A stretch of 64,000 bases of DNA, from contig NZ_JAKCWP010000001.1 of the NCBI RefSeq assembly GCF_028767125.1, positions 124,001 through 188,000 on the forward strand. The letters run 5' to 3'. The notes under the pieces were generated by a model, which was not told the DNA's origin, did not search any database, and worked only from the letters and a program-made list of their open reading frames with translations. Below, one piece after another: positions 30,066-57,421 of this stretch. Numbering within the stretch: the stretch's first letter is position 1; the number at the start of each line of letters is the position of its first letter. A program made the translations under genes and the position numbers. This DNA is from Chelativorans sp. YIM 93263. GTDB taxonomy: Bacteria; Pseudomonadota; Alphaproteobacteria; Rhizobiales; Rhizobiaceae.

Positions 30066-30151
30066 TATGATCTCCTTGTCTTTAGGTGTCATCGCGCGAC
30101 ACAGGGTCAGCTCGCGACACAGCTCCCCAGCACGTATTCCGCTGTCGTTGG

Positions 30152-31911: not shown

Positions 31912-31932
31912 AATCGCCCCTCCCCCTGCGTG

Positions 31933-31960
31933 GGCAGGGGCTTTCATCCGAGCCCCTGCC
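31933..31960 (-). promoter_or_regulatory. intercistronic hairpin between dctP and dctQ
   Basis: GGCAGGGGCT at 31933-31942 and AGCCCCTGCC at 31951-31960 form a perfect 10-bp stem with an eight-base loop, ten bases after the dctP stop on the minus strand. No T-run follows, so it more likely protects the dctP transcript end or attenuates than terminates outright. Binding proteins are usually made in excess over their permeases. Confidence 0.6.
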
Positions 31961-31970
31961 AATCTTGAGA

Positions 31971-34430: not shown

Positions 34431-35224
34431 TGAGAAAAGCCGCCTTTCCGCTACCAGGCGATCAAAAAACGGACCCGCGGGAGCGAATTCCGAGGGTTCA
34501 TAGCGTCGACAAGCAGCCGGATGAGCGCCGTACCGAAGACGGCCCGAAGGCCGCCCTGTACGATGGGCTTAAGGAAGCGCTCGCTAGCGGCCTCGTCATG
34601 CCCGGGCAGACGATTACAATACGATCCGTCGCTCAAGCTTTTGGCACCAGTACAATGCCTGCACGGGAGGCTCTGAATCGCCTACGTGCCGAAGGCGTTC
34701 TCAGCGCCGGCGACGGCAAGTCTTTGATGGTGCCGGTGCTGTCGCAAGCCGACCTCGACGAGATCTACTGGATCCGCCGTGCAATAGAAGGTCAAGCTGC
34801 CGCGCTCGCTGCGGAAAGGATTACGCCGCCGGAGATCAAGCGGCTGGCAGGGCACTTCCGTGCCATGGAGCGGCTGGAGGGCTCCAGCTCTTCAATCAAA
34901 GACCGCCAGGAATTCCTAAGGCTGAATAGAAGCTTCCACTTCGGGATATACGGGGCCTCTCATGCTCAGAATGCCGTGAGGATCATTGAGGGCCTGTGGA
35001 CCCGCATCGGCCCCTATTTCCACCTTCTATCCCTCCACAAGTCTCAGAACTACGGCCAAGAGAACCACAACAGAATGCTTGAGGGGGTCAGAACCGGCAA
35101 CGCGGATGCTTGTCGCCGTGCAGTAGAGGACGACATCGACGGGGGATGTGCCCTGCTCAGAGAACTTATTCGAGACCTTGAAAACTTTCCCGGACTCAGC
35201 AGGGCGACAGCATTCGGAGACTAA
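34427..35224 (+). CDS. GntR family (FCD-type) transcriptional regulator
   Basis: A 265-residue regulator. The winged HTH spans about residues 45-105 (TIRSVAQAFGTSTMPAREALNRLRAEGVL), with the C-terminal FCD ligand domain containing IRRAIEGQAAALAAE, LNRSFHFGIYGAS and HNRMLEGVRTGNADACRRAV, including metal-binding Asn/His positions. A 40-residue charged N-terminal extension is unusual. The ATG at 34427 overlaps the preceding stop. It likely controls both divergent operons through the TGTGATCACA sites. Confidence 0.88.
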   Translation: MMRKAAFPLPGDQKTDPRERIPRVHSVDKQPDERRTEDGPKAALYDGLKEALASGLVMPGQTITIRSVAQAFGTSTMPAREALNRLRAEGVLSAGDGKSLMVPVLSQADLDEIYWIRRAIEGQAAALAAERITPPEIKRLAGHFRAMERLEGSSSSIKDRQEFLRLNRSFHFGIYGASHAQNAVRIIEGLWTRIGPYFHLLSLHKSQNYGQENHNRMLEGVRTGNADACRRAVEDDIDGGCALLRELIRDLENFPGLSRATAFGD

Positions 35225-35396
35225 TGCTGTTCGCCTTTCACCGTGACGAAGCCGTCTCAGTGAACACGTCCGCTTTCCTAACAAATCGGCCTCCGTTCAA
35301 TGCGGCGGTCAGAGGACCACAGCACGGCCGTCAATGCTCATTCGAGTAATCGACGCGCGGAGACCGGCGGTAGCCACAGACTTGTTGGAGGAATAC

Positions 35397-36392
35397 ATGC
35401 GCTTGGTACAAATAATGACCGAGGACGGAGAGCGCCGCGTCGGCATGGTCGAACCTGCGGCGGGCAGCATTCGCCTGATTGATGGGTCCCATACCGTTCT
35501 CGGGTTGGCAGAACGCGCGATCGCGAAAGGGCAAAGCCTGGCCGATCAGGTGCAGGCGCAACTTGGTTCGGATCTGATCGACTACAGCGACGCACTATCG
35601 GCGGGCAGAGTGTTGGCGCCAGTGGATCATCCGGAGCCGGCCCGCTTCTGGATCACAGGAACCGGACTGACGCATCTCGGCAGTGCTCAGGTGCGTGACC
35701 GCATGCACGAGATCGCCCGCAGCAGCGACGGAGAGTTGACCGACTCCATGAAGATATTCCGCATGGGCGTCGAGGGGGGAAAACCCGCAGAAGGTGAAAT
35801 CGGTGTACAGCCGGAGTGGTTCTTCAAGGGCGTCGGAACCTGTGTGGTCCCGCCCGAAGCCCCACTCGTGATGCCGGAATTCGCCTTGGCCGGTGCGGAA
35901 GAGGCTGAGATCGTAGGCCTCTATCTCAATGACCCGGACGGCAACCCGTGGCGTCTTGGTTTCACTTTGGGCAATGAGTTTTCGGATCACGTAACCGAAG
36001 CCATAAACTATATGTACGTCGCACACTCGAAGCTGCGGGTTTGCTCTATTGGCCCAGAGTTGTTGGTTGGCGACCTGCCCTCGCACGTAGAGGGGACTGT
36101 TCGTATCATGAGAGACGACCAGCCGCTTTGGCAGGGGCAGTTCTTGAGTGGCGAGAACAACATGAGCCACTCGCTTCGCAATTTGGAGCATCATCACTTC
36201 AAATACTCCATGTTCCGGCGGCCAGGGGATCTACATGCGTTCTTCTTTGGCGCCGACGTCATGAGTTGTGCCCATGGCGTGAAGACGAAAGCTGGTGATC
36301 GTTTCGAGATCGACGTGCCGGTGTTCGGTCGCCCGTTGAGGAACACTCTGACGCAGGCGTCAGAAGAGACGTTTCTCATACGCTCCCTCTAA
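35397..36392 (+). CDS. GguC / AraD1 family protein (FAH fold)
   Basis: A 331-residue protein matching the GguC/AraD1 family of the fumarylacetoacetate-hydrolase fold. Blocks seen are RFWITGTGLTHLGSAQVRDRMHE, PEWFFKGVGTCVVPPE, AGAEEAEIVGLY, LGNEFSDHVTEA and SCAHGVKTKAGDRFEI. The Glu/Asp residues in EEAEIV and NEFSDH are probable metal ligands. Members occur with pentose and sugar-acid genes, where a 2-keto-3-deoxy-acid dehydratase or hydrolase role is proposed. ATG 35397 has GGAGG upstream. Confidence 0.82.
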   Translation: MRLVQIMTEDGERRVGMVEPAAGSIRLIDGSHTVLGLAERAIAKGQSLADQVQAQLGSDLIDYSDALSAGRVLAPVDHPEPARFWITGTGLTHLGSAQVRDRMHEIARSSDGELTDSMKIFRMGVEGGKPAEGEIGVQPEWFFKGVGTCVVPPEAPLVMPEFALAGAEEAEIVGLYLNDPDGNPWRLGFTLGNEFSDHVTEAINYMYVAHSKLRVCSIGPELLVGDLPSHVEGTVRIMRDDQPLWQGQFLSGENNMSHSLRNLEHHHFKYSMFRRPGDLHAFFFGADVMSCAHGVKTKAGDRFEIDVPVFGRPLRNTLTQASEETFLIRSL

Positions 36393-36418
36393 GTCAGCCC
36401 CGCAATAAGAGTTCGATC

Positions 36419-37615
36419 ATGCGCATAGAACGCGTCGAAGCACTTCGTATCAAAGAACCCGAGTGGGACACGCCGGCATGGTGGTGTACCACGCCTCTCG
36501 ACGGATTGTTCGAGACCGGCCGACGGCTGCGCAACAGCCCGATGGGTCTTTTCAGCAAACCGGTCGGGCACGATGCTGACCCGGTTTTTGCCGTGATCGT
36601 CCGCATCACCACGGACGCCGGTTTGACCGGCATCGGGACGATCGGACTGGGTTCTCAAGCGGCTGCCAGCATTATCGAACAACGTCTTGCGCCGTTGATC
36701 CTCGGGATGAGCCCGTTCGACGTAGAGCTCATATGGGAACTCATGTACCGCAGCACGATCAATATCGGACGTAAGGGCCTTCTGCTCGAAGCAATCAGCG
36801 GGATAGACATTGCCCTCTGGGACATCATGGGCAAAGCGACCGGGCGCCCCGTCTACGACTTGCTCGGTGGGAGGACGCGTGAGCGCATTCGCGGATACGC
36901 CAGCGCCGCCTACGCAATGGAAGACCTCGACCAGGTCGTCGAAATGGCGCGCGGCTACAAGAAGAACGGCTTTACTGCGATGAAGATGCGGTTTGGCTGG
37001 GGTCCGTCTGACGGCCGACCCGGCATGCAGCGAAATCTTGAGATGGTCCGCCGGATCCGTGAAGCGATCGGAGACGACATGGAGCTCATGTCGGACGCCT
37101 ATATGGGCTGGTCAACCCAATATGCTATTGAGATGCTGCCGCTGCTCGAACCCTATCAACTGGCTTGGGTCGAGGAACCGCTGACGCCAGACGACTATGA
37201 CGGCTACACCCGCATCCGCCAGTCGAGCCGAACGGCGATTGCTGCAGGCGAACATGAATTCACCCGCTATGGCTTCAAAGAACTCATCACCCGCGGCTGC
37301 GTCGACATCGTTCAATTGGACGTAAACCGGTGCGGCGGCATCACCGAAGCCAGAAAAATCGTTGCTCTGGCACAGTCTTTCAATCTACCGGTTGTCCCGC
37401 ACGCGCCGGACATTCATAACGTCCACCTCATCATGGCGCAGCACAACATTCCCCTGGTTGAGGTGTTTCCGGATCATGGTCGGGACGGCGACACCTTTAT
37501 CCGCGAGTTGCTCACGGGCAATCCGCCTGTTGCCGACGGGCACATGACGCTTTCGGAGGCGCCAGGCCTGGGCGTGGATATCAATCATGAGATTGTCGAC
37601 CCCTTGCTGGTCTGA
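36419..37615 (+). CDS. enolase-superfamily sugar acid dehydratase B, paralogue of A
   Basis: A 398-residue enzyme closely related to the protein at 33228, sharing EALRIKEPEW, FAVIVRITTDAGLTGIGTIGLGSQAAASIIEQRLAPL, AMKMRFGWGPSDGRPGM, DAYMGWSTQYAIEM, AWVEEPLTPDD and AAGEHEFTRYGF. All metal and catalytic positions are kept: Asp, Glu, Glu, a later Asp in VQLDVNRCGG, and His in VVPHAPD. The two copies may handle epimeric substrates, since both are complete. It is last in the operon after GguC. Confidence 0.86.
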   Translation: MRIERVEALRIKEPEWDTPAWWCTTPLDGLFETGRRLRNSPMGLFSKPVGHDADPVFAVIVRITTDAGLTGIGTIGLGSQAAASIIEQRLAPLILGMSPFDVELIWELMYRSTINIGRKGLLLEAISGIDIALWDIMGKATGRPVYDLLGGRTRERIRGYASAAYAMEDLDQVVEMARGYKKNGFTAMKMRFGWGPSDGRPGMQRNLEMVRRIREAIGDDMELMSDAYMGWSTQYAIEMLPLLEPYQLAWVEEPLTPDDYDGYTRIRQSSRTAIAAGEHEFTRYGFKELITRGCVDIVQLDVNRCGGITEARKIVALAQSFNLPVVPHAPDIHNVHLIMAQHNIPLVEVFPDHGRDGDTFIRELLTGNPPVADGHMTLSEAPGLGVDINHEIVDPLLV

Positions 37616-39263: not shown

Positions 39264-40409
39264 TCAAAACACCGTTTCAAACAGAGCCCTCAAATTCTGC
39301 TGATTTAGCGGAACCGGGTTGCCTCCGCAGGACGGGTCTTCCAGTGCCATAGCCACCAGATCATTGATCCGTCCAGCATCCGCACCGATCTCCTTGAGGC
39401 TGTGCGGAATGGCGAAACTGTCATTGAACGACTGCACGAAGGCGCGGAAACCGTCAAAACCACCGGTAATCCCCAGATATCCGGCCGCCCGGTCGAAGCG
39501 GTCGCGAATGGCAGGTGCATTCAGATCGAGCACGGCGGGCATGCAGATAGCGTTGGTGGTGCCATGATGGGTGTTGAACAGCGCACCGACCGGATGGCTC
39601 ATTGCATGAATGGCGCCAAGCCCCTTCTGAAAAGCGGTCGCACCCATCATGGCGGCCGACATCATATGCGCGCGCGCTTCCAGATCGCCACCTTCCGCAT
39701 AGGCACGCGGCAGATTTTCGATGACCAGCCGCATGCCCTCCAGCGCGATACCCTGACTCATCGGATGGTAGTGCGGACTGGAGAAGGCTTCAACGCAATG
39801 CGCAAATGCATCAAGTCCCGTACCGGCCGTGATGAAGGGTGGCATGCCAATTGTCAGCTCCGGATCGCAGATGACGACCGTGGGCAGGACCTTGGGATGA
39901 AAGATAATCTTCTTCACATGGGTCTGCGAATTGGTGATGACGCTTGCGCGACCGACTTCCGAGCCGGTGCCGGCGGTGGTCGGTACTGCGACGATGGGGG
40001 CGATGGCATCTGCATCGGCCCGCGTCCACCAATCGCCGATATCCTCAAAATCCCAGATTCGATGCGTCTGCCCCGCCATGAAGGCCACCATCTTGCCAAG
40101 ATCGAGCCCAGAGCCGCCGCCGAAAGCGATGACCCCATCATGCCCCCCGGCTTTAAAGGCCTCGATGCCGGCCTCCACATTCTTCTCGTTGGGGTTGGGG
40201 TCAACGTCACTGAACACCGCCCGGCCAAGACCTGCATCCTCCAGAATGTCGAGCGCGTGGGCGGTGATCGGCAGGCCAGCGAGCCCCTTGTCGGTCACCA
40301 GAAGCGGACGCTCGATCCGCGCTTGTGCGCAAGCCTCCGGAAGTTCGGCGATCCTGCCAGCCCCGAACTTGATTGTTGTGGGATAGGACCAGTTTCCGGT
40401 TAAATTCAC
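39264..40409 (-). CDS. iron-containing alcohol dehydrogenase
   Basis: A 381-residue group III alcohol dehydrogenase. NAD-binding motifs are AFGGGSGLDLGKM and VPTTAGTGSEVGRASVI; metal ligands lie in GTGLDAFAHCVEAF, AIHAMSHPVGALF and NTHHGTTNA. GTG 40409 overlaps the aldehyde dehydrogenase stop (GTGA), with AAGG upstream; the longer frame is antisense noise. It is last in the DeoR-TRAP-enzyme operon, where it likely oxidises the alcohol group of the imported or glutamylated substrate. Confidence 0.9.
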   Translation of the reverse strand: MNLTGNWSYPTTIKFGAGRIAELPEACAQARIERPLLVTDKGLAGLPITAHALDILEDAGLGRAVFSDVDPNPNEKNVEAGIEAFKAGGHDGVIAFGGGSGLDLGKMVAFMAGQTHRIWDFEDIGDWWTRADADAIAPIVAVPTTAGTGSEVGRASVITNSQTHVKKIIFHPKVLPTVVICDPELTIGMPPFITAGTGLDAFAHCVEAFSSPHYHPMSQGIALEGMRLVIENLPRAYAEGGDLEARAHMMSAAMMGATAFQKGLGAIHAMSHPVGALFNTHHGTTNAICMPAVLDLNAPAIRDRFDRAAGYLGITGGFDGFRAFVQSFNDSFAIPHSLKEIGADAGRINDLVAMALEDPSCGGNPVPLNQQNLRALFETVF

Positions 40410-41785
40410 GATGTGACCTTCTTCAGATGGTAGGATTTGGGACGGGTAAGATTGTGGTAGCCGATGATAGAAAGCCCGCCACCTCGGCCGGTGTTCTTGC
40501 AGCCGGTCCAGCAAAGGCCGGGGTCGAGGTAATCGGCGCGGTTCATGAACACGGTGCCTGTCTGGATCTGGTCGCCAATCCTCGCCGCTCGTTCTTGGTC
40601 GCGCGTCCAAAGGCTGGCGGTCAGGCCGTAATCGCTATCATTCATCAGGTCGATCGCTTCCGCGTCGTCCTTGACCGCCATGATGCCGACAACCGGGCCA
40701 AAGCTTTCATCGCGCATGACGCGCATCCGGTGGCTGACATTGGTCAAAATCTGCGGTGTCAGATATGTCCCGCCATCGTCTTCGGCAAACCGGTCAATAT
40801 GGGCATGGGCACGGGCGGCTACCGCCTCGTCGATCTGCGCGCGCACCTCAGCCGCAAAGCGGGAATGGGCCATAGGCCCAAGCGTCGTTTCGGGGTCCAG
40901 CGGGTTGCCAAGCTTGTAGCCGTTGACGATGGCTACGGCTTTCTCGACGAAAGCATCGAACAGGCTTTCATGCACATAGATGCGCTCGATTCCGCAGCAG
41001 CACTGACCGGAATTGAACATGGCCGCATCGATTAACCCTTCGACGGCCGCATCAAGGTCGGCGTCGTCCATCACATAGCCGGGATCCTTGCCGCCCAATT
41101 CTGTGCTGACGCCGGTAAAGGTACCAGCCGCCGCGCGTTCCATCGCAGCACCTCCGCCAACCGACCCGGTGAAACTGATGAAATCGAAAACATTCTCGGC
41201 AATGAGTGCGGATGTGGTGCCATGATCGAGGAAGACGTTTGCAAATACATCTTCCGGCACGCCGGCCGCGTGGAACGCCCGGGCCATACGCTCGCCGGCA
41301 AGCAGCGTCTGCGTGGCATGTTTCAATACCACCGTGTTGCCAGCGATCAAAGCAGGCGCGACGGCGTTGATCGCCGTCATATAGGGATAGTTCCAGGGCG
41401 CCACGACAAAGACCACGCCATGCGGCATGCGCTTGATATAGCGCTTGAAGGTGGCATCTTCGCCCACCTGGATGTCGGCCAATGCGCTTTCGGCAATTCC
41501 GGCCATATAGCTGGCCCGCTCGTTGAACCCGCCGAACTCGCCACCATAGCGCACCGGTCGGCCCATCATGCGCGCCAGTTCCGGTACGATCTCGTCATTC
41601 TGTGCGCCCACGGCGGCGACACCGGCCATGACAAGCTCGATGCGTTCGGCGAGCGGGCGCGCAGCCCAATTTGCCTGTGCCGCGCGCAGTCGTGCGATAT
41701 CAGCACGGGCGGCGTCTAACGACAAAGTTTCGCGCTCGGCGAACACCGAACCGTCGATGGGTGAAATACAGCGCAGCATCGTCAT
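40406..41785 (-). CDS. aldehyde dehydrogenase family protein
   Basis: A 459-residue NAD(P)-dependent aldehyde dehydrogenase. Motifs are VVAPWNYPYMTAINAVAPALIAGN, ISFTGSVGGG, the general base Glu in STELGGKDPGYV, the nucleophile region FNSGQCCCGIERIYVHE, and SFGPVVGIMAV. It overlaps the GS-like gene upstream and the alcohol dehydrogenase downstream by four bases each, so the three are made together. It could oxidise a gamma-glutamyl amino aldehyde. Confidence 0.9.
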   Translation of the reverse strand: MTMLRCISPIDGSVFAERETLSLDAARADIARLRAAQANWAARPLAERIELVMAGVAAVGAQNDEIVPELARMMGRPVRYGGEFGGFNERASYMAGIAESALADIQVGEDATFKRYIKRMPHGVVFVVAPWNYPYMTAINAVAPALIAGNTVVLKHATQTLLAGERMARAFHAAGVPEDVFANVFLDHGTTSALIAENVFDFISFTGSVGGGAAMERAAAGTFTGVSTELGGKDPGYVMDDADLDAAVEGLIDAAMFNSGQCCCGIERIYVHESLFDAFVEKAVAIVNGYKLGNPLDPETTLGPMAHSRFAAEVRAQIDEAVAARAHAHIDRFAEDDGGTYLTPQILTNVSHRMRVMRDESFGPVVGIMAVKDDAEAIDLMNDSDYGLTASLWTRDQERAARIGDQIQTGTVFMNRADYLDPGLCWTGCKNTGRGGGLSIIGYHNLTRPKSYHLKKVTS

Positions 41786-43161
41786 GCCCGTTCAAATCCT
41801 CTGGCAATTTCCCAATCTGTGACCACCTTATCGAAGGCTTCGAGCTCCACTTCCGCAGTGCGGCAATAGTGTTCGACTACCTCATCACCCATCGCCGCGC
41901 GCAACATCCGTGAGCCGCGCAGCGCCTCACGCGCGTCGCGCAGACTTGCCGGAATGCTGCCGGTGTCGCCCTGATACACATCGCCAGTGGCGGGGCGATC
42001 CAGCTCCAGGTTTTCCTCTATGCCAGCAATCCCCGCTGCCAGCTGGGCGGCAAGCGCCAAATAAGGATTGAGGTCTGAGCCGCCTATGCGGCACTCCATC
42101 CGCACCGCTTTCGTTCCTGCCCCGCACAAGCGGAAACCAGCCGTACGATTATCGACCGACCAGATAATCCGGGTCGGCGCAAAGGTGCCCTTCACGAAGC
42201 GCTTATAGCTGTTGACATAGGGGGCGAGAAAATAGGTGCAGTCGGACGCATATTTGAGCAGGCCCGCCGTATAACTCTTCATAAGCGCGCTCATGCCAAG
42301 CGGATCGGCAGCGTCATGAAACGCGTTCTCTCCATCCTTCCACAGGGATTGATGCACATGGCTGGACGAGCCGACACGGTCATGGTGCCACTTGGGCAGG
42401 AAAGAAGCTGCGTGGCCCTGCGCATTGGCTATTTCCTTGACCGCGTGTTTGGCGATGGTGTGATGGTCTGCTGTAGCAAGCGCTGCGGCATATTTGATAT
42501 TGAGCTCTTCCTGCCCCGCTTCCGCCTCTCCCTTCGAATTCTCGACCGGGATGCCCGCCTGCCAAAGGTGATTGCGGATCGGCCGCATGACATGCTCTTC
42601 CTTCGTGGTCTGAAGGATGTGGTAGTCCTCGTTGTAGCCACTGATCGGCATCAGGTCGCGGAAACCCGATTTGCGGATTTCGTCGTAGCTCTTCTCGAAC
42701 AGGAAGAATTCGAGCTCCGTCGCCATCATCGCGTCGAAGCCGAGTTCCGCAAGGCGCGCCACCTGGCGCTTTAGGACCGCGCGTGGCGCGTGGGAAATCT
42801 CTTCATGGCCATGGTGATCCAGGATATCGCAAAGCACGATGGCGGTGCCGTCCAACCACGGTACCGGGCGTATCGTGGAAAGGTCAGGCTTCATCATGTA
42901 GTCGCCATAGCCACCCTCCCAGGAGGTCGCGGCGTATCCGTCCGGTGTCGCCATCTCCAGATCCGTGGCAAGCAGATAATTGCAGCAATGGCTCTCTTTG
43001 TAGGCGCCGTTAACAAAGTGGGCTGCCACGAAGCGCTTCCCCATCAGGCGGCCCTGCATGTCCGGGAAGCAAACCAGGACAGTGTCGATCATACCGTTTT
43101 CGACGTGGGATTTGAGCGCCTCGAAAGTCATCGTGTGCGTCATGGGGAAGGCTTTCTTCAC
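41782..43161 (-). CDS. glutamine-synthetase family enzyme, probable gamma-glutamyl-amine synthetase
   Basis: A 459-residue protein of the GS superfamily resembling PuuA/GlnA-like gamma-glutamylamide ligases rather than housekeeping GlnA. The metal and ATP residues are present: MATELEFFLFE, GEAEAGQEELNI, SSSHVHQSLW, FAPTRIIWSVDNRTAGFR, MECRIGGSDLNPYLALAAQ. Such enzymes ligate glutamate to an amine using ATP. GTG 43161 overlaps the upstream stop; ATG 43143 is possible. Position between an amidohydrolase and aldehyde and alcohol dehydrogenases fits a glutamylation route. Confidence 0.85.
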   Translation of the reverse strand: MKKAFPMTHTMTFEALKSHVENGMIDTVLVCFPDMQGRLMGKRFVAAHFVNGAYKESHCCNYLLATDLEMATPDGYAATSWEGGYGDYMMKPDLSTIRPVPWLDGTAIVLCDILDHHGHEEISHAPRAVLKRQVARLAELGFDAMMATELEFFLFEKSYDEIRKSGFRDLMPISGYNEDYHILQTTKEEHVMRPIRNHLWQAGIPVENSKGEAEAGQEELNIKYAAALATADHHTIAKHAVKEIANAQGHAASFLPKWHHDRVGSSSHVHQSLWKDGENAFHDAADPLGMSALMKSYTAGLLKYASDCTYFLAPYVNSYKRFVKGTFAPTRIIWSVDNRTAGFRLCGAGTKAVRMECRIGGSDLNPYLALAAQLAAGIAGIEENLELDRPATGDVYQGDTGSIPASLRDAREALRGSRMLRAAMGDEVVEHYCRTAEVELEAFDKVVTDWEIARGFERA

Positions 43162-43928
43162 TGGACGGAGAGGACGGCGCGGAGGCTGCTCGACAGCAGT
43201 GCAAGGATGTCCGCGCGCTTGTCCGGGTTGGTCAAAAGATCGTTGCGCACCTCGATCATCGCGTAGGGGAACGGTCCGTCGGCGAGATGACGGTCGATCG
43301 TGTGCAGCACACCATCCTTCGGGGCGTAGGGTTCATTCAGGCGAACATCATAGCCGGAGCGCGCGCGGCAGTCTGCCGCCAGATCTTGGGCCAACGTCCC
43401 GTCCTCGCCGTGCAGGAACCCGATCTCGACTTTGCGGGCGACACCGTGGAACACCGGCGTGAAGCTGTGGATGGTCAGCATCACCGGCACCTGGGTGCCG
43501 TTCCGCCGGGAAACCAGCGTTTCAGAAACCGCCCGATGGAAGGGTCCGTAGAGTGCCTGTGCGCGCGCGTCGCGCTCCGCCGGAGAAACTTCCCTGTTGC
43601 CAGGGACCAGACATACCTCGCTTTCATACGGAATGGCCGAGGGAGCGTGAGGCGGGCGGTTGCAGTCATAGACAAGTCGCGAAAACCGAGCCGCCACCAA
43701 AGGGGCATCGAACGTTTCACTAAGCTCCAAGGCGAGATCGCGTGCGCCAGGGTCCCAGCCGACATGGCTGTTGAGCTGATCGGGTGCCAGTCCGAGATTT
43801 CCGAGCTGCACGGGAACGCGACTGGAGGCATGTTCGCAAACCAGAACGACAGGACTTTCTCCACGAGGGTTTATCACCTCGAACGGGGCGCCGTCGGCTT
43901 CGGTGAGTACGGGTTGTCGGGCGAGCAT
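43158..43928 (-). CDS. N-formylglutamate amidohydrolase family protein (island copy)
   Basis: A 256-residue zinc amidohydrolase, diverged from the core copy at 25735. Shared blocks are VVLVCEHASSRVPVQLGNLG, HVGWDPGARDLALELS, FSRLVYDCNRPP, VMLTIHSFTPVFHG and YAMIEVRNDLL. In this operon it follows TRAP genes and precedes the GS-like gene, so I infer it releases glutamate from a gamma-glutamyl or N-acyl intermediate, not N-formylglutamate from histidine. Confidence 0.86.
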   Translation of the reverse strand: MLARQPVLTEADGAPFEVINPRGESPVVLVCEHASSRVPVQLGNLGLAPDQLNSHVGWDPGARDLALELSETFDAPLVAARFSRLVYDCNRPPHAPSAIPYESEVCLVPGNREVSPAERDARAQALYGPFHRAVSETLVSRRNGTQVPVMLTIHSFTPVFHGVARKVEIGFLHGEDGTLAQDLAADCRARSGYDVRLNEPYAPKDGVLHTIDRHLADGPFPYAMIEVRNDLLTNPDKRADILALLSSSLRAVLSVQ

Positions 43929-43983
43929 ACCAGAGCCTTGCAGGGAAAGGCCGGGCAGGCAAGTCCCCGCCCGGCCAGAACCA

Positions 43984-45027
43984 TCAGCTGTAACGATAGG
44001 GCACGCCGGCCTTTTCCATCACTGTCTGATATTTCTTAAAGATGTCGACCACCTTCGCCGCGCGTTCGTTACGCGAAGCCAGTTCGTCCCAAAAGGACGC
44101 ACTGTCGGCGACGACGCCTTCCCACTCCTCGGCCGGAATGGTGGTCAGTTCCAGCTTATCGCCATTGACGCGCAGATCGGCTTCGCCGCCCCAGTACCAG
44201 ACCTGACGATAATAATGAGACTGGTCCATGGTGATCTTGAACAGTTCCTGCAGATGCGGCGGCACTTTCGCCCAGCTCTCGCTATTAGCGAAATAGCTTC
44301 CACACCATGCGCCGGTGACATTGTTCAGCAGAGCGTAATTGCAGATGTCCGCCCAGCCGACTTCATAGGCTTCGGTGAACCCGCACCAGGCGACGCCGTC
44401 GAGCTCACCGGTCTGCAATGCAACCTCAACATCTTCCCACGGCACCGTCACCGGGATCAAACCATAGCGTGCGAGGAACCGGCCAGCTGTCGGCACGCCG
44501 AAAACGCGCAGGCCGGCCATGTCCTCGACCGACCGGATCGGCCTGTCCACCGTGAAGATGTGCAGTGGATCCCAGGCCCCGGCACCGAGCCATTCTACGC
44601 CTTCGATCTCGTCATAGGCTTCCTTCCAGATTTGGTTTAGGCCGTAGCGCTCGAAAAGAACAGGCAGGTCAAGGCTGTAGCGGGTCGAAAACGGAAAGTA
44701 GCCGCCGAAATCGGCCACGTCGGCCGGTGAGGCCATGGTTGCGTCGTCCGATTGTACTGCATCGAGCGTGCCATTCTGCAGCGCCCGGAACAGCTCATTG
44801 GTCGGCACGAGCTGGTCCGCATAGAACAGCTCGATTTCCATCTCGCCGTTGGCGGCTTTGTTGAAGGCGTCGATCTGCGGCTTGATGACATGAGCCCCGA
44901 GCGGCGGGCCGGAATAGGTCTGCAAACGCCACTTGATGGGAGATTGCGCCCGCACGATGTTCGGCGTGGCGAGGGCGGCGGCGCCACCAATGCCTGCGGC
45001 AGTTATGAATTTGCGTCTTGTCGTCAT
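43984..45027 (-). CDS. TRAP transporter substrate-binding protein (Tat-exported)
   Basis: A 347-residue receptor with a Tat signal (MTTRRKFITAAGIGGAAALATPNIVRA). Family blocks are IKWRLQTYSGPPLGAHVI, IELFYADQLVPTNELFRALQNGTLDA, GLRVFGVPTAGRFLARYG, VTVPWEDVEVALQTGELDGVAWCG. It belongs to the DctP group whose members often bind 2-oxo acids or amino-acid-like ligands. It is downstream of the permease genes. Confidence 0.9.
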   Translation of the reverse strand: MTTRRKFITAAGIGGAAALATPNIVRAQSPIKWRLQTYSGPPLGAHVIKPQIDAFNKAANGEMEIELFYADQLVPTNELFRALQNGTLDAVQSDDATMASPADVADFGGYFPFSTRYSLDLPVLFERYGLNQIWKEAYDEIEGVEWLGAGAWDPLHIFTVDRPIRSVEDMAGLRVFGVPTAGRFLARYGLIPVTVPWEDVEVALQTGELDGVAWCGFTEAYEVGWADICNYALLNNVTGAWCGSYFANSESWAKVPPHLQELFKITMDQSHYYRQVWYWGGEADLRVNGDKLELTTIPAEEWEGVVADSASFWDELASRNERAAKVVDIFKKYQTVMEKAGVPYRYS

Positions 45028-45066
45028 GTTGTTCTCCTCTGTCGGTTTTTGATTTTTGGTATTTTT

Positions 45067-46389
45067 CTAACGCCCATAAACATAGTTGGGCAGCCACATC
45101 GCGAGGTCGGGGAAGACCATCACGAGGGTCAGCGCGAGCATCATCACCATAACGAAGGGTGTAATGGACGTATAGATGTCCTTGAGCTTGATCTCCGGCG
45201 GCGCCATGGCCCGCATGAGAAACAGATTATAGCCGAAGGGCGGAGTCATGTAGGCGATCTGCGTGGTGATGGTGTAGAGCACGCCGTACCAGATCAGGTC
45301 GAAGCCGAGCGCCTTCACCAGCGGCACATAGAGCGGCGCCACGATAACCAGCATCGCCGTATCGTCGAGGAATGTTCCCATCAGGATGAAGGAGAGCTGC
45401 ATCAGGATCAGGATTACCCACGGATTGAGGCCCAACTGATCGGTAAACAGCCCGTCGATTGCCCTGACGGCCCCGAGCCCGTCAAACACCGCGCCGAAGC
45501 CGAGCGCAGCCAGCACGATCCACAGGAACATGCAGGAAACGCCGAGTGTCTGCTTGAGCGAGGTTTCGAGGACCTGCCAGGTCATGCGGCCCTTCAGCAC
45601 GGCTGCAACAAATGCCGCCATTGCGCCAATGGCAGAGCTCTCGACCAGCGAAGTCCAGCCGTTGAGAAAAGGCACCATCATGGAGGCGAAGATGCCGACT
45701 GGTAGTAATCCCGCCAGAAGCAGACGGTATTTCTCCGCCTTGGAGATGTCGGCATCGGCCGACTTGATCGCAGGCCCGAGCTGAGGCTGTAACTTGCAGC
45801 GGATGTAGATGTAAAGGACAAAGAGCGCCGCCATCATCAGGCCCGGCACAACCCCGGCGAGCCACAGTTGCCCGACCGGCTGGCGGGCGATCATCGCGTA
45901 GAGCACCAGCACCACTGAAGGTGGCACGAGAATTCCGAGGCTCGACCCTGCCTGGATCACCCCCGTCACCATGCGCTTGTCGTAATTTCGCTTAAGCAGT
46001 TCCGGCAGCGCAATGGTGGCACCAATGGCCATGCCTGCCACGCTCAGACCATTCATTGCCGAAATCAGCACCATCAGGCCAATCGTGCCGATCGCCAACC
46101 CGCCTTTGACCGGCCCCATCCACACATGGAACATCCGGTAGAGATCGTCGGCAATCTTGCTCTCGCTCAGCACGAAACCCATGAAAATGAACATGGGCAA
46201 GGTCAGCATCGGGTACCATTTCATGAGCTTCATGACGGCGGAGAACGGAATCTCCGACCCGCCCGGACCCCACAGGAGCAGCGCAGCGATCGTGGCGATG
46301 CCGCCGATGGCGCCGAAGACGCGCTGGCCGGTCATCAGCATCGCCATCATCGAGGCGAACATTAACAGTGCGATCATCTCATAGGACAT
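45067..46389 (-). CDS. TRAP transporter large permease DctM
   Basis: A 440-residue permease with about twelve membrane segments: MTGQRVFGAIGGIATIAALL, YPMLTLPMFIFMGFVLSESKIADDLY, MNGLSVAGMAIGATIALPELLKR, SSLGILVPPSVVLVLYAMIARQP and YMTPPFGYNLFLMRAM. ATG 46389 shares a base with the dctQ stop. The long loop WMGPVKGGLAIGT is usual for the type. Confidence 0.9.
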   Translation of the reverse strand: MSYEMIALLMFASMMAMLMTGQRVFGAIGGIATIAALLLWGPGGSEIPFSAVMKLMKWYPMLTLPMFIFMGFVLSESKIADDLYRMFHVWMGPVKGGLAIGTIGLMVLISAMNGLSVAGMAIGATIALPELLKRNYDKRMVTGVIQAGSSLGILVPPSVVLVLYAMIARQPVGQLWLAGVVPGLMMAALFVLYIYIRCKLQPQLGPAIKSADADISKAEKYRLLLAGLLPVGIFASMMVPFLNGWTSLVESSAIGAMAAFVAAVLKGRMTWQVLETSLKQTLGVSCMFLWIVLAALGFGAVFDGLGAVRAIDGLFTDQLGLNPWVILILMQLSFILMGTFLDDTAMLVIVAPLYVPLVKALGFDLIWYGVLYTITTQIAYMTPPFGYNLFLMRAMAPPEIKLKDIYTSITPFVMVMMLALTLVMVFPDLAMWLPNYVYGR

Positions 46390-46898
46390 CAGATTTCGGC
46401 CCCGCGAAGTTTCGCAATATCCTTGAGAAGCTCTGAGAACGCCTGCAAAAGCATGAGAAAGATACCGAAGCACATGACCGATTTGATAGGCCACATCAGC
46501 GGCCGCCAAAGGCTCGGGCTGCGCTCCTGGTAATCGATCGCATACATGGTGGAACTGATGGCGCCGTAGAGCAGTACGCCGAGATACAGGATCAGGAGGA
46601 GGACGGTGAAACTGTCGAAGACCGCTTTCTTGCGCGTACTCCAGTTTCCGTAAAACAGGTCCATCCGAACATTGGAGCCCATCTGGATTGAATAGGCCCC
46701 CCCGACGAGATAGTAGGCGACCAGCGCAAACTGGGCCATTTCAAGCGTCCAAAAGGCGGGAATCGTGAACATCGCCTTGGAGATGGTCGACCACAGCAGG
46801 ATAGCGACGATTATAAAAAAGCCGTACATCATCAGCCGGCCGGCATAATAGTTGAAGCCGTCGACATAGCGGACATAGGCTCTGAAAAATCGTGGCAT
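46389..46898 (-). CDS. TRAP transporter small permease DctQ
   Basis: A 169-residue membrane protein with four segments and the DctQ-like pattern ALVAYYLVGGAYSIQMGSNVRMDLFYGNWSTRKKAVFDSFT. It is coupled to the large permease and follows the DeoR gene by 18 bases. Confidence 0.85.
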   Translation of the reverse strand: MPRFFRAYVRYVDGFNYYAGRLMMYGFFIIVAILLWSTISKAMFTIPAFWTLEMAQFALVAYYLVGGAYSIQMGSNVRMDLFYGNWSTRKKAVFDSFTVLLLILYLGVLLYGAISSTMYAIDYQERSPSLWRPLMWPIKSVMCFGIFLMLLQAFSELLKDIAKLRGAEI

Positions 46899-46916
46899 TG
46901 AAGCGGGCTCCAGAGT

Positions 46917-47708
46917 TCAGTGAATGCTCACTTGCGCCGCCCTCAATGCTGCGGCCAGATCGGCGTCGGGTGAGCGATTAAGAAAAGCATGTCGCACCTG
47001 AGTCAAATCGCACACCTTATGGGTGGCAGTCCGGTTGAGTTTGGAGTGATCGACGACGAGCGAAAGATTTCCGGCATTCCGGACCATAGCACGCGCTATC
47101 TGGGCCTCCTCGTAAGATACGTCATAAGCGCCGCTCGCATTCAACGCACTGACCGTTAGTACCACGTGGTCAGTCCGGTATTCGGCAATCTCTGCGCAGG
47201 TTTTAGCACCGTAGGTCTGATCATTGCCGACACGGTAGGCACCACCCAGAAGGATGGCGCGCGAATCGTTGCCGGCATTGGCTATGGTGTGGGCGATCCG
47301 GGTCGAGTTGGTGATTACGGTCAGATCCCTGAGCCTGGCCAGGGCTTCCGCGCATAGCAGGGTGGTTGATCCCGTATCGATCATCACGGACTCCCCCGGT
47401 TGAACCGTTCTCGCCAGCTTCTCAGCAATCTCCCTCTTGGCCTGCGTGTTTTCGGCCAATCGATCCTCGAAACGGCCCTCACGCAACCCGGCCTGACGCA
47501 CGGCCCCACCATGAATCTTGCGCACCCGCCCCTGCTCGGCCAGCACATTCAGATCTCGACGCACCGTTTCCACCGAAGCGCCGTATCTCTCAGCAATTTC
47601 TTCCACGGTTGCCCGGCCACGCTTCTCGACCAGTTCATAGATCGCCGCCTGCCGCACGGACGGCCGCATCGATTTGCCATTCAACCCAGTGGACTGGTGT
47701 CTCCCCAT
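46917..47708 (-). CDS. DeoR/GlpR family transcriptional regulator
   Basis: A 263-residue repressor-type regulator. The N-terminal HTH reads AIYELVEKRGRATVEEIAERYGASVETVRRDLNVLAEQGRVRKIHGGAV. The C-terminal DeoR sensor contains GESVMIDTGSTTLLCAEAL, LTVITNSTRIA, AILLGGAYR and SLVVDHSKLNR. Such regulators usually sense a phosphorylated sugar or polyol, here plausibly the product of the divergent FGGY kinase. It is first in the leftward operon. Confidence 0.92.
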   Translation of the reverse strand: MGRHQSTGLNGKSMRPSVRQAAIYELVEKRGRATVEEIAERYGASVETVRRDLNVLAEQGRVRKIHGGAVRQAGLREGRFEDRLAENTQAKREIAEKLARTVQPGESVMIDTGSTTLLCAEALARLRDLTVITNSTRIAHTIANAGNDSRAILLGGAYRVGNDQTYGAKTCAEIAEYRTDHVVLTVSALNASGAYDVSYEEAQIARAMVRNAGNLSLVVDHSKLNRTATHKVCDLTQVRHAFLNRSPDADLAAALRAAQVSIH

Positions 47709-47943: not shown

Positions 47944-49332
47944 ATGCCCGCAATTTCCAACGCAGGACAATCCTACGACGTCGCCATCATCGGCGCAGGA
48001 ATAGTTGGCTGTGCACTGGCCCGCCGCTTCACGCTGGATGGTGCGCGCGTGGTTGTGCTCGAAAAAGCGCTCGACGTGCTGGATGGGGCATCGAAGGGCA
48101 ACAGCGCGATTCTGCATACGGGTTTTGACGCACCGCCCGGCTCACTCGAACAGGCCTGCATTGCTGCCGGCTACCGGGAGTATCTGGAAACCGCGGAAAA
48201 ACTTGGCCTGCCGGTTCTGAAATCCGGCGCGATGGTTCTTGCCTGGAACGAGGAACAGGCGGGTCAATTGCCGCAGCTGATCGAAAAGGCTTGCGAAAAT
48301 GGCGTTCACGATGTTGCGCCTTTGACCCGCAGCCAGATCCTGAAACGTGAGCCGAACATTTCCGACACGGTTCTCGGCGGGTTTGAGATCCCGGGCGAAC
48401 ATCTCATCGACCCGTGGGCCACCGCCCATGCCTACATGCTTCAGGCGCTTGCCAATGGGGCGGAACTCATACGCGATGCGGAAGTGCTTTCAGGCCGCTT
48501 TGACCGGCACTGGACGCTGACGACGACCCAGGGCGAGGTGGTGGCCGGCCACGTCGTCAATAGCGCGGGGCTTTATGGAGACGTGGTGGATGAACGCCTG
48601 CTCGGGCGCAAGAGCTTTTCCATCCGACCGCGAAAGGGTCAATTCCTGGTGTTCGACAAGGCCGCTTCCAACCTCGTCTCCACCACGATCCTTCCGGTCC
48701 CTACAAAGACCACAAAGGGTGTGGTCATCTGCCGGACCATCTTCGGCAACGTCTTGGTCGGACCGACGGCGGAAGACCAGGAAAGCCGAACGGACGCCTC
48801 CACCGATCGCAGCACGCTGCAGATTTTGCGGTCCAAGGGGGTCGCCATGCTTCCGGGACTCGCGTCGTGCGAGGTGACGACCGCCTATGCAGGGCTTCGC
48901 CCCGCATGCGAATACCAAGATTACCAGATCGCCTACCACGCCGACCATGCCTGTGTGACCGTCGGTGCCATTCGCTCCACCGGGCTCAGTTCAGCACTCG
49001 GCATTGCGCAGCATGTGGCGGGGCTTCTTGGCCTCTCCGGAAAACCACTTTGCAACCCGGTCATTCCGCAGGTCGACCGACTTTCAGAATACCACGCCCG
49101 CGACTGGCAGGAGGAAGGGAACGACGGAATCGTCTGCCACTGCGAACTGGTGAGCCGGCGCGAGATTGAACGGGTTCTGGACGGGCCCATGCCGCCGGCG
49201 ACGATACAGGGGCTTAAGCGCCGCACGCGCGTGATGATGGGGCAGTGCCAGGGGTTTTACTGTACGGCGGAACTCGCCGAAATGACCAGAGGCAAGCTCA
49301 AGCGCCCGCTGGGATGTGACCATGACGGATGA
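47944..49332 (+). CDS. FAD-dependent glycerol-3-phosphate-dehydrogenase-like oxidoreductase with Bfd-type iron-sulfur domain
   Basis: A 462-residue DAO-fold flavoenzyme. The FAD motif is AIIGAGIVGCALARRF, and KGNSAILHTGFDAPPGSL is a typical substrate-side loop. The C-terminal 60 residues are a BFD-like [2Fe-2S] domain with cysteines in IVCHCELVSRREIERVL and MMGQCQGFYC. The architecture matches GlpA-type dehydrogenases of anaerobic glycerol operons. ATG 47944 (GAGG upstream) fits; the longer frame covers the promoter region. It overlaps the next gene by 11 bases. Confidence 0.87.
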   Translation: MPAISNAGQSYDVAIIGAGIVGCALARRFTLDGARVVVLEKALDVLDGASKGNSAILHTGFDAPPGSLEQACIAAGYREYLETAEKLGLPVLKSGAMVLAWNEEQAGQLPQLIEKACENGVHDVAPLTRSQILKREPNISDTVLGGFEIPGEHLIDPWATAHAYMLQALANGAELIRDAEVLSGRFDRHWTLTTTQGEVVAGHVVNSAGLYGDVVDERLLGRKSFSIRPRKGQFLVFDKAASNLVSTTILPVPTKTTKGVVICRTIFGNVLVGPTAEDQESRTDASTDRSTLQILRSKGVAMLPGLASCEVTTAYAGLRPACEYQDYQIAYHADHACVTVGAIRSTGLSSALGIAQHVAGLLGLSGKPLCNPVIPQVDRLSEYHARDWQEEGNDGIVCHCELVSRREIERVLDGPMPPATIQGLKRRTRVMMGQCQGFYCTAELAEMTRGKLKRPLGCDHDG

Positions 49333-50548
49333 ACGCTGCACAGTAGCCGTTGTCGGCGGCGGTACGGCGGGGCTTGCATTGGCACGCGAACTGATGCGGG
49401 TCCAGGTGGGACGCGTTGTCGTTCTGGAACGCGAAGCCGAGGCCGGCGGAATTCCTCGTCATTGCGGCCACTATCCGTTCGGCCTGCGGGAATACAGGCG
49501 CCTGATGAAAGGTCCGGACTACGCCCGGCTCAATCGGGAACGGGCAAAGGCCGCGGGCGCCGAGATCCGCACCGGAACAACTGTAACGCGGCTCTTGCCC
49601 GGCGGACGACTGGAGCTTTCGACTCCCTGCGGCCCCTCTTCCCTTGCCGCAGAGCGCGTGGTGCTATGCACCGGCGTGCGCGAAAGTTCGCGCGCGCAGC
49701 GCCTCGTGAGCGGCGACCGACCGGGCGGTGTTCTTTCCACCGGCGCTTTACAGGGCTCGGTCTACCTGAAAGGCATCAAGCCCTTTCAGCGGCCGGTGAT
49801 TTTCGGCTCGGAGCTGGTCTCCTTCTCCGCCTTCCAGACCTGCGCGCATCTGGGCATCTCGCCTGTTGCCATGGTCGAAGAGGAAAGCCGCATTGTCGCG
49901 CGAAAACTCTTCACTCCCTACCTCTGGCTCAAACGTGTGCCGCTCTACACAGGCGTCTCCAGTCCGCGCATTCTGGGGAAGAACAGGGTCGAAGCACTGG
50001 AATTCGAGGATTGCAACGGGGCGCTGCAGACTTTCGAGACGGACGGCATCATCATGTCCGGCCGGTTCCGCCCCGAATCCGCTCTCTTGCGGCGCAGCCA
50101 TATCGCCATCGATCCAGGTACGGGCGGCCCCGTGGTCGACCAGTTTGGACGCTGTTCGGACCCCACCTATTTCTGCGCCGGCAATCTGCTGCGTCCGGCA
50201 GAGACCTCCGGCTGGTGCTGGACTGAGGGTATCGAGACCGCGCGGCGTGTGGCTAGGGATCTGGGCCAGCCTGCTCCCTCTACCTCTGTCCCGCTCGTCA
50301 CGAAGGATGCGCGGCTTCGCTTTGTCGTTCCACAGCGCCTGACCGCGACCCAGCTGGAGGATGGCATGGAACATATGTATCTTGGCCTCGAAACGGCCGT
50401 GAACGCCACTGTTATGGCGCGCTGCGGCGACAGGGTGCTGTGGAGCGGCTCTTTGCGCGGCAGGCCCGTGCGCCGGATCACCTTGCCACTCGGCGAGATC
50501 CTGCGCGCCCGACCTGACGCGCCGGTGGAACTGACGCTAGAAGGTTGA
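49322..50548 (+). CDS. NAD(P)/FAD-dependent oxidoreductase partner (GlpB-like role)
   Basis: A 408-residue flavoprotein with VAVVGGGTAGLALARELMR at the N-terminus, PRHCGHYPFGLREY, VVLCTGVRESSRAQRLVSGDRPGGVLSTGALQ and the C-terminal FAD contact PTYFCAGNLLRPAETSGWCWTEG. An extra C-terminal region of about 90 residues follows. In glycerol operons of Firmicutes a comparable flavoprotein follows the GlpA-like one, probably passing electrons on. It is translationally coupled to that gene and lies six bases before the kinase. Confidence 0.83.
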   Translation: MTDERCTVAVVGGGTAGLALARELMRVQVGRVVVLEREAEAGGIPRHCGHYPFGLREYRRLMKGPDYARLNRERAKAAGAEIRTGTTVTRLLPGGRLELSTPCGPSSLAAERVVLCTGVRESSRAQRLVSGDRPGGVLSTGALQGSVYLKGIKPFQRPVIFGSELVSFSAFQTCAHLGISPVAMVEEESRIVARKLFTPYLWLKRVPLYTGVSSPRILGKNRVEALEFEDCNGALQTFETDGIIMSGRFRPESALLRRSHIAIDPGTGGPVVDQFGRCSDPTYFCAGNLLRPAETSGWCWTEGIETARRVARDLGQPAPSTSVPLVTKDARLRFVVPQRLTATQLEDGMEHMYLGLETAVNATVMARCGDRVLWSGSLRGRPVRRITLPLGEILRARPDAPVELTLEG

Positions 50549-50554
50549 CTGCGC

Positions 50555-51973
50555 ATGATCCTCGCCGGTATCGACCAGGGAACGACAAGCACCCGCATCC
50601 TGATTGCGCGGACAGACGGGACCATCGAGGTCGCGCATGCGGTACAACACAAGCAATATTATCCCGAAGAAGGCTGGGTGGAGCACGATCCCGACGAGTT
50701 GATCGTGAATATCCGGGCATGCGCCGACGCTGCCAGCGGGGCGCTTGCCCTTGGCATCGACAATCAGGGTGAGAGCTGCCTCGCATGGGATGCGCGGACC
50801 GGGGAGGCATTGTCCCCTGTTCTCGTCTGGCAGGACAAAAGGACACTGGACGCGTTGGAACGGCTCAAGGCCGAGGATGCGGAGGCGGAAACCCTTGCCC
50901 GCGCTGGTCTTCCGCTCGATCCATATTTCTCCGCCAGCAAGCTCGGCTGGATTCTCGAACACCTGCCGGCGGCGCGCGAAGCTCGGAAGCGTGGCACCCT
51001 GCGGCTCGGCACGACCGACGCGTTCTTTCTCGACCGCCTGACCGGACGCTTTGTCACCGATGTCACCACCGCCAGCCGCACCTGCCTGATGAACCTCGAA
51101 ACGCTTGAATGGGACCCGGTTCTTTGCAGGCTTTTCGGCGTGCCGGTGGATTGCCTGCCGCAAATCGTGCCGACCACCGGTGATTTCGGTGGCCTGAAAA
51201 CCGCGAGCGGTTCGCTTCCCGTCACCGCCAGCGTGGTGGATCAGCAGGCCGCGCTCTACGGCTTCGGCTGCCGCGCGAAAGGCGAAATGAAGATCACTTT
51301 CGGCACCGGCGCGTTCGCGCTGATGGTGACTGGAGAGGAGATCATTAACAAGCCGGAGCTGGGCCTGCTGCCCACCGTGGCCTGGCAACGCGCCGATGAG
51401 GCACCCGTCTATGCGCTTGATGGCGGCGTGTTCACCGCCAGCGCCGCCCTCAACTGGGCAAAGGAGATCGGTCTCTTTTTGGATTTCTCCGCGATAAAAT
51501 CCTTCACCGCCTTCTCGGCCGTGGAAAGCGGGCTCGTCTTCGTGCCGGCGCTTGCTGGCCTCGGGTGCCCGCATTGGGATTCGAGGGCGCGCGGCGTCTG
51601 GTCGGGCCTCTCCCTCGATCATGGGGCGGAGATCATGGTCCAGTCCATCCTCGAAGGCATCGCCTACCGCGCGTCCGAAGTGATTGCGGCCATGGATCAG
51701 TGCGTCCGCTTGTCGGATGCGGTCCACATCGACGGTGGCATGAGCCAGAATGCCTATTTCGCACAGTTTCTCGCGGACATTTCTGGGCGCAGCATTTGCC
51801 CGGCCCTAATGCCGGAACTGACCGCGCTCGGAACCATCGAACTGGCGAGCCACGCCACAGGCGAAAGCTTCAATCCAAAGGTGGAGTTCGGACGGACGAT
51901 GCCGAAGCGGGATCTGAGCGCCATGGTCCCCCGTTTCGAAGCGGCCATCTCGGCATCTATCGCAGCTCGATAA
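50555..51973 (+). CDS. FGGY family carbohydrate kinase, glycerol-kinase-like
   Basis: A 472-residue kinase of the FGGY family: AGIDQGTTSTRIL at the phosphate-binding N-terminus, LGIDNQGESCLAWD, LVWQDKRT, TFGTGAFALM, GLGCPHWDSRARGVW and IDGGMSQNAYFAQFLADI. It resembles glycerol kinases but is shorter and lacks some of their substrate loops, so the substrate may be a related polyol. It is the last gene of the divergent operon. Confidence 0.87.
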   Translation: MILAGIDQGTTSTRILIARTDGTIEVAHAVQHKQYYPEEGWVEHDPDELIVNIRACADAASGALALGIDNQGESCLAWDARTGEALSPVLVWQDKRTLDALERLKAEDAEAETLARAGLPLDPYFSASKLGWILEHLPAAREARKRGTLRLGTTDAFFLDRLTGRFVTDVTTASRTCLMNLETLEWDPVLCRLFGVPVDCLPQIVPTTGDFGGLKTASGSLPVTASVVDQQAALYGFGCRAKGEMKITFGTGAFALMVTGEEIINKPELGLLPTVAWQRADEAPVYALDGGVFTASAALNWAKEIGLFLDFSAIKSFTAFSAVESGLVFVPALAGLGCPHWDSRARGVWSGLSLDHGAEIMVQSILEGIAYRASEVIAAMDQCVRLSDAVHIDGGMSQNAYFAQFLADISGRSICPALMPELTALGTIELASHATGESFNPKVEFGRTMPKRDLSAMVPRFEAAISASIAAR

Positions 51974-54051: not shown

Positions 54052-54052
54052 C

Positions 54053-54547: not shown

Positions 54548-54634
54548 TTTTGGAGCTCCCTTTGCATGACCGTTCCCTGGTTGCCGGCGGCTTAAGGGTC
54601 GGGCCGGTCTTTCGCCGACTCCGACCCAATAGAT

Positions 54635-55624: not shown

Positions 55625-55669
55625 ATTCCCCTCCTTTATCGTTGTGGAAGTTGGATTTCGGGCGGTTGG

Positions 55670-57388: not shown

Positions 57389-57421
57389 CAAGCTCTTCCC
57401 GCCACAGTTTTGCATTCCTAT

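Follow-up and report, generated by a model that had tools for sequence, protein, structure and literature searches.

A candidate ethanolamine operon and its divergent neighbor

We analyzed a stretch of 64,000 nucleotides from the alphaproteobacterium Chelativorans sp. YIM 93263 (contig NZ_JAKCWP010000001.1, positions 124,001–188,000; hereafter the window, numbered from its first letter), focusing on an operon of eight closely packed genes that are all read leftward, from 47708 to 39264. Genes were identified with Pfam or curated profile models, and scores are given in bits and compared with the cut-off of the model. The operon encodes a DeoR-type regulator, a tripartite ATP-independent periplasmic (TRAP) transporter, an amidohydrolase of the N-formylglutamate amidohydrolase (FGase) family, a ligase of the glutamine synthetase (GS) superfamily, an aldehyde dehydrogenase (ALDH) and an iron alcohol dehydrogenase (Fe-ADH). 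We consider it probable that this is a DeoR-controlled operon for the import of ethanolamine, or a very close amino alcohol, and its degradation via glutamylation. A second operon (47953–51973, plus strand) diverges from the regulator gene, and the intergenic region is common to both. The features are:

46917..47708, minus strand: DeoR/GlpR-family regulator (PF00455, 134.6 bits; PF08220, 65.7 bits)
46389..46898, minus strand: DctQ, TRAP small permease (PF04290, 67.3 bits)
45067..46389, minus strand: DctM, TRAP large permease (PF06808, 222.4 bits)
43984..45027, minus strand: DctP, TRAP receptor of a second ethanolamine-receptor type ("type A"), in a clade of its own (4uab, 462.6 bits)
43158..43928, minus strand: FGase-family amidohydrolase, probable gamma-glutamylglycine hydrolase (PF05013, 142.8 bits; 2odf, Atu2144, 240.7 bits)
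41782..43143, minus strand: GS-superfamily ligase, probable ethanolamine gamma-glutamylase, ATG start (5dm3, 764.8 bits)
40406..41785, minus strand: aldehyde dehydrogenase, probable gamma-glutamyl-aminoacetaldehyde dehydrogenase (PF00171, 374.6 bits)
39264..40409, minus strand: iron alcohol dehydrogenase, probable gamma-glutamylethanolamide dehydrogenase, GTG start (PF00465, 165.7 bits)
47953..49332, plus strand: GlpO/GlpA-like FAD oxidase with a C-terminal BFD [2Fe-2S] domain (PF01266, 193.9 bits; PF04324, 29.8 bits; 4x9m, 130 bits)
49316..50548, plus strand: FAD/NAD oxidoreductase partner (PF07992, 46.9 bits)
50555..51973, plus strand: FGGY kinase, glycerol-kinase-like, with an Arg-to-Gly change in NQ(R/G)E (GlpK model, 411.2 bits; cut-off 590.35)

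The first-pass annotation, made from the letters alone, had drawn the same leftward operon, and profile matches recovered all eight genes, with scores well over the Pfam cut-offs (for example 142.8 versus 28.9 bits for FGase and 326.5 versus 24 bits for Gln-synt_C). It left out the divergent operon and missed the subtype of the receptor. Two of the three four-base overlaps that it reported, at the ligase-ALDH and ALDH-Fe-ADH junctions, are as described. The third, between the FGase and ligase genes, holds only if the ligase starts with the GTG at 43161. With the ATG at 43143 the two genes are 14 bases apart, and it is from this codon that the alignment with 5dm3 (query residues 1–452) runs.

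The glutamylation cassette and its relatives

The Puu pathway of E. coli and the Ipu pathway of Pseudomonas glutamylate their substrate, oxidize it and then remove the glutamate. The window operon would follow the same three-stage logic with another substrate. Its ligase reaches 201.5 bits against the PuuA model (NF045547), short of the cut-off of 650, and PuuA is thereby ruled out; the earlier label "PuuA-like" named the right superfamily and was otherwise loose. The 764.8 bits are scored against 5dm3, which we take to be Csal_0679 of Chromohalobacter salexigens. Nor is the ligase the top-scoring GS of the genome, a protein of 466.9 bits encoded elsewhere. The Eto operon of C. salexigens was reportedly described by Vetting and coworkers in 2015 and is known to us through citing papers.

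A related operon in Phaeobacter sp. MED193 encodes, according to the available part of its description, an RpiR regulator, a gamma-glutamylglycine amidohydrolase, EtoVWX, an ethanolamine gamma-glutamylase and two dehydrogenases (PMC10132767). The same part of the source reports that proteins of the operon rise on phosphorylethanolamine and that EtoX binds ethanolamine with a Kd of 7.9 uM, and names studies of C. salexigens and Agrobacterium tumefaciens as the origin of the pathway (PMC10132767). The Eto operon shares with the window a TRAP transporter, a GS-like ligase, an ALDH, an alcohol dehydrogenase and an amidohydrolase, with the receptor and ligase belonging to the families of 4uab (Csal_0678) and 5dm3. 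The MED193 hydrolase is likened to that of the window by its described role, the sequence comparison having been made with the Chromohalobacter israelensis hydrolase (49% identity). The window operon differs in its second-type receptor, in the divergent kinase/FAD operon and in having DeoR where the MED193 and Paracoccus denitrificans operons carry RpiR. Furthermore, its TRAP genes precede the four-enzyme cassette, whereas the Eto TRAP genes sit between those of the FGase and the ligase.

Named genomes were scanned with the 5dm3 letters, and the best 80 of 586 relatives were kept. The C. israelensis ligase is 100% identical over the 452 query letters and lies in the order FGase-DctQ-DctM-DctP-GS-ALDH-FeADH, in which the identities to the window proteins are 49, 47, 81, 59, 73, 78 and 80%, respectively. 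P. denitrificans PD1222 has the order RpiR//FGase-TRAP-GS-ALDH-FeADH, and its hydrolase is annotated as an N-formylglutamate amidohydrolase. That name does not fit the window protein, which scores 23.7–26.2 bits against the HutG (N-formylglutamate deformylase) model TIGR02017 with a cut-off of 278.75; a separate HutG (386.5 bits) is encoded elsewhere in the genome, and HutG as its identity is ruled out. The whole genome has six PF05013 matches. One of them, also in the window (25735–26526, plus strand), is a second FGase-family gene scoring 162.3 bits, with genes for a DUF1036 protein and a pyruvate kinase next to it.

The first-pass annotation regarded an FGase-family enzyme in the hydrolase slot as a novelty. 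This does not hold, because the family is regularly present in related operons, such as those of C. israelensis and P. denitrificans, and has been proposed, in the available part of a Streptomyces coelicolor study, to hydrolyze gamma-glutamylglycine (PMC6529630). The GlnA4 pathway of that study resembles the window in the glutamylation of ethanolamine, the two oxidations and the proposed hydrolase; it differs in having a short-chain dehydrogenase for the Fe-ADH, another regulator and another putative transporter, with no TRAP named in the part available (PMC6529630). A literature search by title found no paper treating the FGase, GS and dehydrogenases together.

By homology to these systems, the TRAP transporter would import ethanolamine or a close amino alcohol, and the GS-like ligase would use ATP to join ethanolamine to glutamate, yielding gamma-glutamylethanolamide. 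Two successive oxidations of the hydroxymethyl end, by the Fe-ADH and the ALDH, could then give gamma-glutamylglycine, which the FGase-family amidohydrolase is predicted to split into glycine and glutamate.

The co-occurrence of the four enzymes that the first-pass annotation had suggested checking was found across genomes. We fetched ligase neighborhoods from 60 of the 127 ligase-bearing genomes (ranks 2–41 with the first, G067 included, then 20 chosen). Of the 110 ligase loci flanked by 5 kb or more on both sides, 95 have the FGase, ALDH and Fe-ADH genes on the same strand and no more than 6 kb away (53/60 and 42/50 in two sets, which are not fully independent as L116 and L136 look like one genome). 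The grouping is therefore not due to chance. A receptor gene is also near the ligase in 74 of these loci (46/60 and 28/50), and ten have no FGase nearby. The FGase directly precedes the ligase in 14 of the 114 fetched loci in which the two are near each other; within those 14, a TRAP receptor is close by only in L187, from the genus of the window and with the same arrangement. In a tree built with FastTree only, the window ligase falls in a clade of 58 rows, 44 of them linked to canonical receptors and 12 to none in reach, plus the close relative L187.

Several loci combine the cassette with other genes. In two Litoreibacter species (L081 and L087), two FAD genes diverge from a DeoR-FGase-GS-ALDH-FeADH operon, with no kinase or TRAP gene in the stretch fetched, next to what by eye resembles a polyamine-type ABC transporter. 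Hence, the kinase can be absent where the FAD pair accompanies the glutamylation cassette. L149 and L150 have an APC-type amino acid permease (by eye) between FGase and ligase, where other operons hold the TRAP genes, and a Na/Pi-cotransporter-like protein (by eye) is encoded directly 5' of FGase-GS-ALDH-FeADH in Ruegeria atlantica (L070, 7558–9258). The window's own genome has a second GS-like ligase and FGase pair, about 4.3 kb apart (L012, G000:C23:70000–89999), with an RpiR regulator, two isochorismatase-family hydrolases and a branched-chain-type ABC transporter as neighbors by eye; this pair possibly serves another glutamylation pathway.

Two receptor types and their partner genes

The window receptor scores 462.6 bits against 4uab over residues 28–346, and the next PDB sequence reaches 61.7 bits. 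Csal_0678 is described, in the available part of the source, as an ethanolamine-binding TRAP receptor without the usual Arg147 (PMC4646407), and Glu220 is reported to hold ethanolamine in its structure, 4UAB (PMC12410723, available in part). Receptors were assigned to the type of the window at identity thresholds of 70% (tblastn) or 72% to its receptor, and then formed one clade in the tree. A fully supported branch (FastTree) splits this clade of 27 sequences from one of 113, the canonical type. With conservation thresholds of 85% for the window type and 80% for the canonical one, 24 positions are group-specific. Eight of these fall in three motifs, where SDDDS of the canonical type becomes SDDAT, FTFPTAG becomes FGVPTAG and WSGITEDYT becomes WCGFTEAYE. 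The platform glutamate, contained in one of these motifs, is at least 95% conserved in both types (E219 of the window aligns with E225 of L047, residue 220 counted from its Met), whereas the remaining motif residues are not as in EtoX at the eight changed positions. The three motifs probably line the binding pocket, judging from the Glu220 report and from presumed TRAP receptor contacts rather than from coordinates. The separate clade and the 24 positions rule out that the window receptor is simply EtoX.

The partner genes of this receptor type vary. Contexts were fetched for all 22 matches except G114, which lies at a contig end, and L235 was left out. Whole or partial ligase cassettes accompany the kinase operon in four of the 27 window-type receptors (the window, L187, L172 and L177), with the assignments of L172 and L177 resting on tblastn since antisense frames masked genes in the open reading frame listing. 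Six have a ligase without the kinase operon (L152, L156, L159, L192, L206 and L207), the ligases of L206 and L207 being distant (32% and 46%). Thirteen have the kinase operon without a ligase, and four have neither within the fetched stretches; L152, L159 and L195 reach contig ends, and the absence of a kinase there proves little. L192 is a full RpiR-type ethanolamine operon with a window-type receptor, as is L156 by tblastn. On the best tree of 29 rows, ligase presence changes at least seven times and the kinase operon at least six while the receptor motifs stay constant; the tree is weakly resolved, well-supported branches forcing only three changes for the kinase and one for the ligase, and some absences are contig ends.

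Some of these modules are on plasmids. That of Paracoccus albus carries both (ligase, ALDH and Fe-ADH, with no FGase listed), and those of Tistrella mobilis and Rhizobium ACO-34A carry the kinase operon. The receptor type is also found with the EutBC ammonia-lyase. EutB lies beside its module in three loci, L239, L198 and L190 (in the last after DeoR). Chelatococcus CO-6 is among the three genomes concerned, and there the module is on a plasmid that bears the kinase operon together with EutB and EutC adjoining DeoR. The genome of the window gave no EutB match.

This receptor type has the divergent GlpO-like/FAD/kinase operon as a companion, whose kinase and oxidase have GlpK and type 2 glycerol-3-phosphate oxidase as nearest families. 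The kinase resembles glycerol kinases most closely (2dpn, 315.5 bits) and, as listed above, stays below the cut-off of the GlpK model (TIGR01311). Where 2dpn and 6k78 have NQRET, NQGES stands in each of the 17 kinases of this operon that were aligned. The Arg of NQRE presumably contacts glycerol in E. coli GlpK; the other residues that we take to be GlpK glycerol contacts (Glu, Trp, Tyr, Asp-Gln and Phe) are conserved. An alignment of the oxidase with glycerophosphate oxidase (4x9m) shows the motifs HTG, GxRP and S-x-GL retained. The literature, in a search covering few subscription journals, gave no description of the kinase operon (TRAP with glycerol kinase and DeoR, or a glycerol TRAP) and nothing pertinent on GlpO active-site residues, and the available part of a paper on the TRIS pathway (PMC10848231) offers no help on serinol or a similar cluster.

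Substrate candidates and what the operon may mean

If the window-type receptor imports ethanolamine, the genomes that encode it should hold an ethanolamine enzyme. This was tested in a sample of 297 genomes from the order, counting as ligase any match with E ≤1e-120 (identities down to 48%). The ligase occurs in 127 genomes, EutB in 79, either in 202 and both in 4; about 34 with both would be expected under independence, so that the two are nearly mutually exclusive. The 22 genomes with a window-type receptor all have at least one (ligase in 18, EutB in 6, both in 2), and the four without a ligase all carry EutB (hypergeometric odds of 1.4e-4 for 22/22 and 0.036 for 4/4, relatedness ignored). 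This favors ethanolamine or a close amino alcohol as the ligand. The check was extended to six further window-type genomes at the class level. EutB was present in three, and a fourth had a 66% ligase elsewhere; in the remaining two, the sole ligase was a distant one (46% and 33%) encoded in the receptor operon.

The ethanolamine reading draws on gene content, receptor and ligase homology, conserved synteny and genome co-occurrence with ethanolamine-use enzymes, from which we infer the substrate, every catalytic step, their order and the control of these genes by DeoR. Glutamylation of an imported amino alcohol, as the first-pass annotation proposed, is well supported by homology to and conserved synteny with the ethanolamine pathway; that annotation named no substrate, and ethanolamine now appears to be the best candidate. 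Several observations weigh against this reading. The regulator and gene order are unlike those of the described Eto operon, and the 24 changed positions mean that the receptor may bind a ligand other than ethanolamine itself. No ligase gene lies within 4 kb for 14 of the 22 window-type receptors, compared with 58 of 68 canonical receptors that have one. The ten canonical receptors farther from a ligase include five genomes with a ligase elsewhere and five with neither ligase nor EutB (G006, G057, G094, G047 and G199, with completeness values of 94, 83, 97, 91 and 71%; G006, G057 and G094 share a genus), and the latter five speak against a strict rule. The co-occurrence odds ignore relatedness while 202 of the 297 genomes carry one of the enzymes anyway, and the ligase matches, which extend down to 48% identity, are only putative ethanolamine ligases.

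That the ligase makes only glutamine, that the FGase acts on N-formylglutamate and that their grouping is fortuitous is what a family-name annotation would say. We find this scarcely credible, given that a GS and a HutG of high score are encoded elsewhere, that the window FGase scores so low against HutG and that FGase, ALDH and Fe-ADH accompany the ligase in most full-flank loci. Two other explanations concern the companion operon and the exact ligand and are compatible with the ethanolamine reading. One transporter may feed two modules, glutamylation for ethanolamine and the kinase and GlpO-like oxidase for glycerol, both compounds coming from phosphatidylethanolamine head groups. The glycerol-related nearest families of the kinase and oxidase agree with this, as do the rise of GlpR on phosphorylethanolamine in Phaeobacter (Table 2 in the available part of PMC10132767) and the GlpR-like nature of the window DeoR. 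We hold it to be possible but doubtful, as a GlpK is encoded elsewhere in the genome (705.6 bits, over the cut-off of 590.35), the Arg of NQRE is missing in all 17 kinases and the receptor occurs in the RpiR-type operons L156 and L192 with no kinase operon in the stretch examined.

Alternatively, the substrate may be a larger amino alcohol (serinol, alaninol or 3-amino-1,2-propanediol), with the kinase operon providing a second, phosphorylation route for the same compound. The three altered receptor motifs would fit, and they stay constant while the partners switch between ligase cassette and kinase operon. In addition, the Arg-to-Gly change in the kinase, if the presumed GlpK contacts apply, could make room for an amine through the lost positive charge, and an amino alcohol is possibly the kinase substrate. 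This explanation seems unlikely. The ligase clade of the window consists mostly of canonical-receptor ligases, the GlpO-like enzyme retains the motifs aligned with glycerophosphate oxidase, few of the partner switches are forced by supported branches, and a receptor taking both ethanolamine and glycerol would give the same pattern. In its most specific form, which we regard as improbable, the receptor type together with the DeoR, FGGY kinase, GlpO-like and FAD proteins would constitute an undescribed phosphorylation-based amino-alcohol pathway, and the window would hold two routes for one compound that other genomes would carry separately. The kinase without the glycerol-contacting Arg would phosphorylate the amino alcohol and the GlpO-like enzyme would oxidize the product, perhaps at the amine carbon; serinol phosphate yielding dihydroxyacetone phosphate would be the neatest case.

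Elsewhere in the window, a class III aminotransferase gene lies beside another TRAP system with DctM and DctP (28749–33002, minus strand), and two enolase-superfamily (MR/MLE) genes are grouped with a GntR regulator and a 352-amino acid protein without a Pfam match at 1e-5 (33228–37615, plus strand). TctA and TctC transporter genes accompany a thiamine-diphosphate enzyme (52534–57415, minus strand), with a GntR regulator at 57528–58211, and a large autotransporter with passenger repeats is encoded at 60386–63889 (minus strand).

The ethanolamine reading mainly extends an already known pathway. Its arrangement in the window would be a new hybrid, joined to a second receptor type and to a divergent kinase operon. 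If this second receptor type is an ethanolamine importer, surveys built on the first type may undercount ethanolamine use. Should amino alcohols be the substrates of the kinase operon, this would represent a further microbial way of using these compounds, and genes currently annotated as "glycerol kinase," "FGGY family carbohydrate kinase" or "FAD-dependent oxidoreductase" would gain a testable function. As the partners of the receptor change between glutamylation cassette, ammonia-lyase and kinase operon, the question lends itself to a direct test with purified proteins.

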